This document shows positions 44,873-61,029 of a stretch of DNA of 64,000 bases, in pieces. Each line of letters opens with the position of its first letter. Positions within the stretch are counted from its first letter, which is position 1. Made by a program: the position numbers and the translations under genes. The stretch comes from an uncultured Methanobrevibacter sp. (GTDB lineage Archaea > Methanobacteriota > Methanobacteria > Methanobacteriales > Methanobacteriaceae), in NCBI RefSeq assembly GCF_946408925.1, contig NZ_CAMJUE010000004.1, positions 1 to 64,000 on the forward strand. The letters run 5' to 3'. The notes beneath the pieces are model-generated. The model did no database searches. It was not told the origin of the DNA and saw only the letters and a list, made by a program, of their open reading frames with translations.

Positions 44873-44895
44873 TAGCATTTTTTGGAGGATTTAAT

Positions 44896-47154
44896 ATATC
44901 TAACTTTATTTGGCTTTTTGGAGAAAACAACTGTAAAACAGCAAGCAATAATTCATTTTTTTTCTGGAAAAGCATAGTCAGTATTAAAGACAATATTGAC
45001 AAGTATTTTGTCATTGAAAAGAATGATGTGACATTGAAAGTGTATAATACTCTTTCAAGTCATGAAAAAAAGTATGTTTTATGGAAAAACTCTATGAAAC
45101 ACTTTAAAATATTTGGTGATGCGGATCTGTTTTTCGTAACGTTATCATTCAAAGATGTTGTTCCGGATAAGTTTATTGTTAAAAGGATGGATATGCGTTT
45201 GAAAAAACCTTTCATACATCTTCAAAAGGGTGTTGAGGGGATGAAAGTGTATGATGAAAAGGGAATTTCCTTTAACAATCATATTTTCAGATTTTTTGTA
45301 TATAATAAACCGTTAATTAATAAAATAAAAGAGTATAATGAGTTTAAGGATTATCAGTTGTTTTATTCAAAATACCAACCAAAATGGGGAGATTTACTTA
45401 GAAAAGAAGAGAAAATTGAAAGCGACAATCAGATATTCTGGTTCATTACCCATAGAAGATACTTCGTTACTAATGAAATGGATACTAAATTTTTCGTTAG
45501 ATACATTAAAAGAGTAATCCAGGACAAGTCATTAATCAAGTTTCTCAAGGATAATGATTTTAAAATTAAAATATGCACCCATCTGATTAGTGAGGATATT
45601 ATTTTGAATGAACTTTCTCAGTATATTGATAATGATTTGATTACTGTTTGTAAGCAGGAAAATACTGATATAGCGACTGAAATAGCAAAAAGTGATTTGT
45701 TAATCACTGACTTTTCATCAATTGTTTATGATTTTGCATTTTTAAACAAGCCGTCAATCATTTTCCAGCCTGATTTGGAAATATTTGATGAGAATAATGA
45801 TGTATATTATACAGATGAGGAGTTCAGTGATGTTATAATTACTCCTTCCGATTTGGTGGAAAGGATTATATCTAAAGACTATTCAATTGATCCGTTTTTC
45901 AAAAAAGGATTTGAAAATATTGATTATGGCTTTGTTAAATCAGATAAACATCTTAAAGAGTTTTATGATTATTTCTACAGACTGCAAAATAATAAAATCA
46001 CATTCATAGGATATAATTTTTATGGTATTGGTGGAACCGTAAATGCTACAATGGCTTTGGCTGAAAGTTTACTGGAACATGATTGCCTTGTAGAGTTAAT
46101 TTCTCTTAAAAGATTGGATGAATTCAGACACATTCCCCCTTATGGATTGAATATAAAATATATCCAATGGGATAATTCAGGTTCAATTAAAGAGAAGGCT
46201 AATAGATTCACCCACAGGTCACCAAAACATTACAGTTTTTTAGATTATGATTATGATAAAAAGAATTTGCATCCCTATGTAGGTTACACTTTAGATAAGC
46301 TGATGAAAAATATTAAAACAAAAACATTAGTTTCAACAAGGGAATCCCTTCATTTGTTTGTTAATGAAGCAACTTCAGGTGATGTTGAAAATAAAGTGTT
46401 TTTCTTCCATACATTAGCAGATGTTGTTCCGAATGTATTTCCAAATCTTATTGAAAAACTCAAGACTATCCAACTTGATAAAGCAGTTTTTATCACCGAC
46501 AAGAACAGATTGGCACTTAAGGAAAAATTCGGTTATGATAATTTCAATTCCTATATCTGCCTGGGAAACACTTTAATCGAATCCAAAATGATTGATAAAA
46601 GTGAAATTGTTCCTGTAGAAAAAAAGGACAAATACAAGGCGATTTATCTGATAAGAATCAGTACCGAGCGAAAAAAGGATATTGAAAATCTGATTAACTT
46701 CGCCAAATATGTCAAGGAAAATAATAAAACAAATATCGAGATAGATGTATTTGGAGATGGAAACTATGTGGGTGAATTCTTAAAACAAATTGATTCCAAT
46801 GATTTGGAGGGCATAATAAATTATAAATTTTCAACAGAAACTCCAATTGAAGAAATCAGAAATCATGATTTCATGATAGACTTCACATTAAACCACAGTT
46901 TTGGAATGACATACATAGAAGCAATATTGAACGGTAAGAAGGTGTTCTGTATGGAAAATCCCGGATCGCTTGAAGTAATGGATGATATTCCGGATTCATA
47001 CATTCAATCTTATGAATGGTTATGCAATCAAATAGATGAAATTGATAAAATCACAAAACAGGATTTAATATGTTATTATGATAACATTCAGGAGAAATAT
47101 TCTCATGCAACACTTGCAAATAAATTTTTAGAGTTTATAGGTGAGGAGTCATAA
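44896..47154 (+). CDS. CDP-glycerol phosphotransferase/glycosyltransferase fusion, paralogue 1
   Basis: The downstream paralogue reads SSDNFIWIFGENL; the same segment here is ISNFIWLFGENN. No ATG, GTG or TTG opens this segment in frame. An ATA at 44896 is placed six bases after GGAGGA, so it is the apparent start. The first usual start codon, a GTG at 45028, would delete 44 conserved residues. The N-terminal half is a TagB/TagF-like CDP-glycerol transferase (LLITDFSSIVYDFAFLNKPS, IIFQPD), but the catalytic HGT is KGV at K111. The C-terminal half is a GT4-like domain with FGMTYIEAILNGKKV intact (E675). It likely polymerises or decorates a teichoic acid-like glycan. Confidence 0.7.
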   Translation: MSNFIWLFGENNCKTASNNSFFFWKSIVSIKDNIDKYFVIEKNDVTLKVYNTLSSHEKKYVLWKNSMKHFKIFGDADLFFVTLSFKDVVPDKFIVKRMDMRLKKPFIHLQKGVEGMKVYDEKGISFNNHIFRFFVYNKPLINKIKEYNEFKDYQLFYSKYQPKWGDLLRKEEKIESDNQIFWFITHRRYFVTNEMDTKFFVRYIKRVIQDKSLIKFLKDNDFKIKICTHLISEDIILNELSQYIDNDLITVCKQENTDIATEIAKSDLLITDFSSIVYDFAFLNKPSIIFQPDLEIFDENNDVYYTDEEFSDVIITPSDLVERIISKDYSIDPFFKKGFENIDYGFVKSDKHLKEFYDYFYRLQNNKITFIGYNFYGIGGTVNATMALAESLLEHDCLVELISLKRLDEFRHIPPYGLNIKYIQWDNSGSIKEKANRFTHRSPKHYSFLDYDYDKKNLHPYVGYTLDKLMKNIKTKTLVSTRESLHLFVNEATSGDVENKVFFFHTLADVVPNVFPNLIEKLKTIQLDKAVFITDKNRLALKEKFGYDNFNSYICLGNTLIESKMIDKSEIVPVEKKDKYKAIYLIRISTERKKDIENLINFAKYVKENNKTNIEIDVFGDGNYVGEFLKQIDSNDLEGIINYKFSTETPIEEIRNHDFMIDFTLNHSFGMTYIEAILNGKKVFCMENPGSLEVMDDIPDSYIQSYEWLCNQIDEIDKITKQDLICYYDNIQEKYSHATLANKFLEFIGEES

Positions 47155-59377: not shown

Positions 59378-60061
59378 ATGAGTTTGCTTGAAGTTAAAAA
59401 TCTTAAGAAAAGTTTTGATGATAATGTAGTTTTAAAGGATATTTCTCTAAGTGTAGAAAAGGGTGAAGTTTTAGCCATTATAGGTCCTTCAGGTTCAGGT
59501 AAATCAACATTGCTTAGATGCATAACTGATTTGGAAACTGAAGATAGTGGTGAAATTAATTTCGACGGATCTTTCGGATTGGTATTTCAGAATTTCAACT
59601 TGTTTCCTCATCATTCAGTAATGAAAAATATTACAAATGCACCAATACGTGTTCAAAAAAGAGATAAAAAAGAAGTATTTGAACATGCAAGAGACTTGCT
59701 TAAAAAGATGGGTCTTGAAGATAAGGAAGATGCATATCCTTGTGAGTTGTCAGGAGGTCAGCAGCAAAGGGTTTCAATAGCAAGAGCGCTTGCGATGAAT
59801 CCGGATATTCTGTTCTTCGATGAACCTACTTCAGCACTTGATCCTGAACTGACCGGTGAAATTCTTAAGGTAATACGTGATCTTGCTGCTGAAAATATGA
59901 CAATGGTGATTGTAACACACGAAATGGCTTTTGCTCGAAATGTAGCTGATAACATCATTTTTATGGATGGTGGAGTTATTGTTGAGCAGGGCACACCTGA
60001 AGAAGTATTTTCTTCTGAAAATAAGAGGATGAAAGATTTCCTCGGAAAATTTTATGATTAG
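59378..60061 (+). CDS. Amino-acid ABC transporter ATP-binding protein
   Basis: The 227-residue ATPase contains [16 protein letters not shown] (Walker A), [17 protein letters not shown] (Q-loop), [20 protein letters not shown] (signature), [15 protein letters not shown] (Walker B and D-loop) and VTHEMAFAR (H-loop). It belongs to the GlnQ/HisP type and is complete. It ends the three-gene uptake operon, nine bases after the permease. An archaeal cell would use it for polar amino acid import. Confidence 0.95.
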
Positions 60062-60147
60062 TCATAAAATTTAAATTCTATTTTTTTTTACTTTCAGATA
60101 GTTTTATATGCTTTAATGATATAAATTATCTCAAAGGAGGAATATTC

Positions 60148-61029
60148 ATTAAGAAATTTTTATATATATGGATAATCTTATTATTTTTTTCATTTACTCT
60201 ATCAATAGTTGGTGCCAGTGAACAAATCTCTATTGATACAAACCAGTCACAGGAAGCTAATGAATTGGAAGTATTGTCCAGTGAAATAAATAACAATGGT
60301 TCTTCAATAACATTATATAATGACTATATTTACAATAATTCTGATGATAAGGTATTTTTAAATAAATCTGTAACAATTGAAGGGAATGACCATAGTATTG
60401 ATGCAAATAACAATACCATATTTGAAGTAACCAATAATAATAACATTATTTTTAAAAATATTACTTTCAATAATGTTAATGAATTTTTTATGAATATAAC
60501 TGGTGTAAATTCAAACATCACCTTTTTAGATTGCAATTTTAATTTTATAAACAATTATACAGATAATTGTGTAAATGTAACTTATAATGTGCCATCTTAT
60601 GGTTTTACCTGTGAAATTTCATCAACAATAAAAAACCTTGCAGAAGCTATTGTAGGTCAATCAACCGATCTTGATGCTGCAAAAAAACTGGCCAAATGGG
60701 TAGGTCGTAATTTTGACCATGAAACTCGAGACGGATTTTACCAAACTCCTGATGAGACATTAAATAGAAGAATCGGAAACTGCTGCTCCCTAACCGACTT
60801 GTTTTTACAAATGTGTGTTGCAGTTGGGGTAGATAAAAACCATAAATTATATTATGTCCATACAGGAACACCTAAATTCGGTAAAAGACATTTCTTCGCA
60901 ATGATAGACAACATACTGGTTGATGTTGGTTCTAAACCTTATAATCCGTGGGGTCACGCATTATTTATAGATGATGTGATTTATGGATTCACAGAATATC
61001 CAATGCTGCCTCTTCCAAGAAATTATTAA
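60148..61029 (+). CDS. Secreted transglutaminase-like protein with beta-helix-type N-terminus
   Basis: The frame upstream of the first usual start codon (TTG, 60265) encodes a clear signal peptide: KKFLYIWIILLFFSFTLSIV then GASEQ. AAAGGAGG ends at 60140, and an ATT at 60148 with seven bases of spacing is the apparent start, so translation probably begins at a non-canonical codon. The mature part starts with a right-handed beta-helix-like N-rich region (NHSIDANNNTIFEVTNNNNI) of the kind found in adhesins. A transglutaminase/pseudomurein peptidase-like fold follows: RIGNCCSLTDLFLQMCVAVG with the nucleophilic cysteine, HFFAMIDNILVDVGS with His and Asp. It may cut or cross-link the cell wall. Confidence 0.6.
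   Translation: MKKFLYIWIILLFFSFTLSIVGASEQISIDTNQSQEANELEVLSSEINNNGSSITLYNDYIYNNSDDKVFLNKSVTIEGNDHSIDANNNTIFEVTNNNNIIFKNITFNNVNEFFMNITGVNSNITFLDCNFNFINNYTDNCVNVTYNVPSYGFTCEISSTIKNLAEAIVGQSTDLDAAKKLAKWVGRNFDHETRDGFYQTPDETLNRRIGNCCSLTDLFLQMCVAVGVDKNHKLYYVHTGTPKFGKRHFFAMIDNILVDVGSKPYNPWGHALFIDDVIYGFTEYPMLPLPRNY

Follow-up and report, generated by a model that had tools for sequence, protein, structure and literature searches.

At which codon does translation begin in a gene whose reading frame holds no ATG, GTG or TTG between a stop codon at 60061 and a TTG at positions 60265-60267, i.e. 39 codons into the protein? This question is raised by a forward-strand gene of the window, the whole stretch of 64,000 nucleotides analysed here (bases 1-64000 of contig C4), which belongs to a draft assembly of 2.30 Mb in 133 contigs, 87.8% complete. 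The Shine-Dalgarno (SD) sequence AAAGGAGG can be read directly at positions 60133-60140, and seven bases further on stands an ATT (60148-60150). Translated from this codon, the N-terminus is IKKFLYIWIILLFFSFTLSIVGAS, a typical signal peptide (IKKFLYIWIILLFFSFTLSIVGA, positions 60148-60216, the end being a predicted cleavage position), and this architecture is common to all homologues. The frame continues to position 61029 (stop included) and, as judged from its translation, the family alignment and Pfam, encodes a secreted protein of 293 amino acids with a transglutaminase-like domain. The initial annotation had described the SD, the spacing, the ATT with its in-frame signal peptide and the TTG as the first usual start, all exactly as we find them.

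The TTG is not preceded by an SD and its use would remove the signal peptide; no ATG, GTG or TTG compatible with the conserved N-terminus was found. Spacing 7 is the optimum SD distance in this genome, where it is the commonest value among ATG genes with a strong SD (52 of 125). Folding of the mRNA gave no structure that would hide the start site (z = +1.0).

Homologues were retrieved by protein similarity, a search blind to the start codon, and this is the only family gathered without a bias towards ATH codons (H = A, C or T). It has six full-length members: besides the window gene, these are a paralogue of the same assembly, with 42% identity to the window protein, and orthologues in genomes G026, G078, G076 and G065 (42-51%). 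Five of the six, the window gene included, have no usual start at the SD-placed site, which is occupied by ATT in the window gene and G026 and by ATC in the paralogue, G078 and G065. The exception is G076, where an ATG immediately precedes the codon of the corresponding isoleucine, and AUH is therefore not strictly required at these starts. The ATC of G065 follows a weaker GAGG site, and an in-frame ATGATG without a recognisable SD lies further upstream. In the paralogue a stop codon stands four codons upstream of the ATC, so that no upstream start is possible and the ATC is the sole SD-placed option. The initial annotation had proposed the ATT as an apparent start codon; ATT or ATC in all but one of the five further homologues, the position of the SD and the genome-wide test given below all support that assignment.

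The orthologues of G026 and G076 are 80% identical, with dN = 0.109, dS = 0.340 and dN/dS of about 0.32, which indicates purifying selection on the gene. Four gene neighbourhoods were compared and had no other genes in common. That the gene is translationally coupled to a conserved gene upstream was also considered, and was rejected because these neighbourhoods are unrelated.

The transglutaminase-like identity, previously suggested from the sequence, is borne out by a Pfam match to PF01841 (E = 2.7e-8, 34.5 bits against a curated cut-off of 23) over residues 163-228 (positions 60634-60831), and all four family members scanned lie above the cut-off. What it has in common with the PF01841 superfamily is the transglutaminase-like core, here in a secreted protein of a methanogen. 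Cys212/Cys213, His248 and Asp259 are invariant in four homologues and are putative catalytic residues, judged by motif; His248 and Asp259 lie downstream of the Pfam match in the window protein. The predicted structure, with a pLDDT of 45.7, was of too low a quality to place them. Part of the protein resembles the N-terminal regions of adhesin-like proteins. The pseudomurein endoisopeptidases PeiP and PeiW are, we assume, possible kin; the window protein differs from them in that the Peptidase C71 (pseudomurein endoisopeptidase) profile is not among the Pfam matches of the protein or of the scanned members, and in that no PDB relative was found by sequence. A search of viral contigs found no relatives. 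The protein is probably wall-active.

The use of such codons was then assessed in 1.50 Mb (about 65%) of the window genome, taken in stretches. In open frames of 100 codons or more, we counted the in-frame codons that follow a strong SD (GGAGG or GAGGTG) and lie ahead of any usual start. Seven of them stand at spacing 7, and all seven are ATH (four ATT, two ATA, one ATC), against an ATH background of 12.6% among such codons (binomial P = 5e-7), whereas at the remaining distances between 0 and 15 there was no excess, with only 5 ATH in 54. Among the seven are the window gene and its paralogue, two further adhesin-like genes and a second gene of the window, in which GGAGG (44884-44888, forward strand) is followed at spacing 7 by ATA (44896-44898). 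This gene, to which the initial annotation had already pointed as a companion case with a strong SD and a non-canonical start, encodes a PF04464 glycerophosphotransferase plus glycosyltransferase, and its first usual start lies at 45028. One more adhesin-like gene, on contig C109, has ATT after AAAGGAGG; it was found by pattern and is additional to the seven. Extrapolation from the 65% sampled gives a class of about ten genes for the whole genome. Genome G029, of which 400 kb were sampled, did not show the enrichment of ATH at spacing 7; either the frequency differs among species or the sample was too small.

Some unusual starts of other kinds were met with in these genomes. In G029 (L047:18226) a signal-peptide gene has TTT, which is not near-cognate, at spacing 7 after GGAGG, and a TTG seven codons on may be its start. 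The CTP synthase gene pyrG of the window genome (L132:16168-17766, contig C23) has an apparent CTG start after GGAGAGG, with no usual in-frame start ahead of the conserved N-terminus. A TFB-like gene of the same genome (L065:7083, contig C2) overlaps the gene upstream and has an SD-placed ACG at spacing 8 after AAAGGAGG, perhaps its start; the nearest usual start downstream lies 57 codons further on.

Across the genus, the pattern GGAGG-N7-ATH-AAR-AAR gave 62 matches in 67 genomes. Thirty of these ATH-Lys-Lys loci were read: 22 begin a gene, of which 18 encode a signal peptide and four belong to a single exonuclease family (PF00929); the remaining eight fall within genes or in short frames. 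As a control, the identical context was searched with CTH, GTH or TTH in place of ATH, which gave 35 matches, and none of the 30 read begins a signal peptide. The ATG version of the pattern was found 16 times in 31 genomes (15 gene starts, six with a signal peptide) and the ATH version 33 times, as raw matches, in those same 31 genomes; in this strict context AUH is therefore at least as common as AUG. Secretion is commoner with ATH than with ATG starts in the strict Lys-Lys set (P = 0.015; P = 0.05 with protein families collapsed), and in the window genome, with the Lys-Lys condition lifted, secreted proteins make up 5/7 of the ATH but 19/94 of the ATG starts (Fisher P = 0.008). Signal peptides were called by a simple hydrophobicity rule and not by a trained predictor; the rule wrongly flagged an exonuclease (L249) and missed a truncated signal peptide (L256), and the counts are those obtained after reading. 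The assemblies are mostly metagenome-derived, and the single-contig genomes G011 and G034 also show the pattern. Orthologue sets gathered by the ATH pattern itself cannot tell how often ATG replaces ATH.

In four genomes the exonucleases of the RNase_T family (L235, L249, L250 and L254), which are not secreted, start with ATT or ATA. Among adhesin-like genes, one of G016 (L020) has an ACG, seven bases behind GGAGG, that leads into a signal peptide, and several others retrieved by protein similarity (L014, L015, L018, L021, L022, L026, L030, L095) often have TTG after a strong SD; weak start codons may generally be favoured for this class. The adhesin-like frames of L022, L096, L100 and L104 begin in a common stretch, VEGLVGQSLRGFKSRPPHH, which looks like the tail of a tRNA gene lying directly upstream.

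The pattern extends to other genera of the Methanobacteriaceae, where 14 of 20 matches begin a signal peptide, a fraction that is no estimate of frequency, the 20 having been picked for AT-rich spacers. A signal peptidase-like protein (L278, genome G102; the DNA pattern is also present in G103) starts with ATA and has its next usual start 46 codons later, and in a secreted protein with an ATC start the next usual start is 107 codons on. With no possible downstream start, these two are the firmest single cases. A polyphosphate kinase gene has an ATT start with a stop codon immediately upstream; PP_kinase_N is matched from residue 10, and this N-terminal domain begins ahead of the next usual start. 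The polyphosphate kinase, the RNase_T exonucleases and the signal peptidase-like protein lend independent support to such starts. Outside the Methanobacteriaceae, an ATT-started lipoprotein-like beta-helix gene is shared by three species belonging to a different family of the same order, and an ATT-started NosD/beta-helix surface protein occurs in a single species from a different order. A search of more distant archaea for the ATH pattern found none. Other near-cognate starts were seen only singly: CTG in the CTP synthase, and ACG in the adhesin-like gene of G016 and perhaps in the TFB gene of the window genome.

Comparable starts are known from bacteria. In Staphylococcus aureus, cvfC1 (AUU) and ccpN and infC (AUA) have extended SDs and start codons conserved in relatives, and AUU or AUA starts behind strong SDs reach roughly 10% of the expression obtained with AUG (PMC13009471). 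The archaeal cases resemble them in the conserved AUU or AUA, the strong and well-spaced SD and the retention of non-AUG codons by orthologues. The S. aureus cases differ in being bacterial, in being limited to a few proteins of regulatory function or small size, in that initiation was measured by Ribo-Ret and reporters, the archaeal case being drawn from sequence, and in having IF3 as their fidelity factor. Archaea are not known to have IF3. In Escherichia coli, infC and pcnB have an AUU start that limits expression (Binns and Masters 2002, as cited in PMC13009471); as summarized there, they share the AUU with the window gene, but are two isolated chromosomal genes, neither of them secreted, and infC is autoregulated by IF3. 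The adhesin-like proteins of Methanobrevibacter (PMC2812497) are secreted and built of beta-helix-type repeats, and in the genomes analysed here many of their genes carry the ATH start pattern.

The anatomy of the site, the conservation of non-AUG codons in the homologues, the enrichment at a single spacing and the association with signal peptides are, very probably, best explained if AUU 60148 is a weak start rescued by a full SD, which yields a secreted protein at low dose, and if this is a habit of the whole family. The complete SD at the optimal distance of 7 nt would place the initiator tRNA over the AUU, where, as with AUC or AUA, only the first two positions of the codon would pair and initiation would be weak, and the exactly spaced SD would hold the ribosome in place and so compensate for the poor codon. 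The outcome would be a secreted, probably wall-active transglutaminase-like protein made in small amounts. Methanobacteriaceae would use AUU, AUC or AUA (rarely ACG or CUG) behind strong SDs at exactly the right distance, chiefly for secreted surface proteins, and a low level of a possibly wall-cutting enzyme and of large adhesins would plausibly spare the secretion machinery or the wall. We infer that initiation is with methionine, that the yield is reduced and that a low dose may have been selected. The idea of deliberate low-level expression, put forward in the initial annotation, is plausible, since the non-AUG codon is kept across deep divergence and such starts give about a tenth of the AUG yield in S. 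aureus.

It is possible, though we rather doubt it, that the ATT starts are instead tolerated drift in an AT-rich lineage with strong SDs, AUG having mutated to AUH in genes for which a low yield costs little and the change having persisted with no selection for weakness. The third base varies between T, C and A among orthologues, G076 has its AUG alternative, and surface proteins are plentiful and redundant, with 105 adhesin-like proteins in M. ruminantium (PMC2812497). However, five of the six deeply diverged homologues lack AUG, though one mutation would restore it, the complete and precisely spaced SD resembles compensation, and an ortholog-like group, in a set found by the ATH pattern, has kept ATC in five genomes.

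It seems unlikely that AUH starts form a class-level control, in which surface-protein synthesis is held low, tied to initiation fidelity and tuned together, so that a change in fidelity (e.g. in aIF1 level or growth state) would shift all AUH-started proteins at once. The bias towards secreted proteins is consistent with such a switch, in Sulfolobus aIF1 reportedly disfavours start codons other than the canonical ones (PMC6237735), and the AUA start of S. aureus ccpN responds to the medium (PMC13009471); on the other hand, some housekeeping genes (polyphosphate kinase, exonuclease, CTP synthase) also have near-cognate starts. The aIF1 (SUI1) gene is absent from the window assembly, but 96 of the 139 family genomes have it. 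It sits in the ribosomal-protein operon, and the 1.5 Mb sampled contained nothing of this operon. Loss of aIF1 as the cause of AUH starts was rejected, an assembly gap being the likely reason for its absence. Several other drafts (G026, G065, G068 and others, besides the window genome, G000) also gave no aIF1, probably through gaps and not loss.

A start at TTG 60265 with a cytoplasmic product, or a decaying gene copy, is very improbable: this TTG is the first conventional start, but no SD was found ahead of it, 39 codons including the conserved signal peptide would be lost, and the homologues retain signal peptide, catalytic motifs and purifying selection. A base-call or assembly error hiding an ATG, which the draft state of the assembly (133 contigs, 87.8% complete) might suggest and which would have undone the initial annotation, is hardly conceivable, given ATT or ATC at the same place in independent assemblies and a genome-wide pattern specific to spacing 7, and the ATT can be regarded as genuine.

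The usual gene callers allow only ATG, GTG and TTG, and Prodigal ignores ATA, ATT and CTG (PMC2848648); the annotation of AUH-started proteins therefore probably lacks the signal peptides, so that their secretion goes unrecognized. Our literature search, in which subscription journals were thinly covered, found no paper linking Methanobrevibacter with AUU starts, and the breadth of AUH starts in archaea and their bias towards secreted proteins appear, provisionally, to be undescribed. AUU-type starts have been known as isolated bacterial cases, whereas here they appear to be recurrent and conserved across an archaeal family. Genes with AUH starts are natural templates for testing how the archaeal ribosome chooses its start codon. 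Methanobacteriaceae dominate methane production in the rumen and gut, and surface proteins, the class in which most AUH starts are seen, are under study as targets for host interaction and vaccines.
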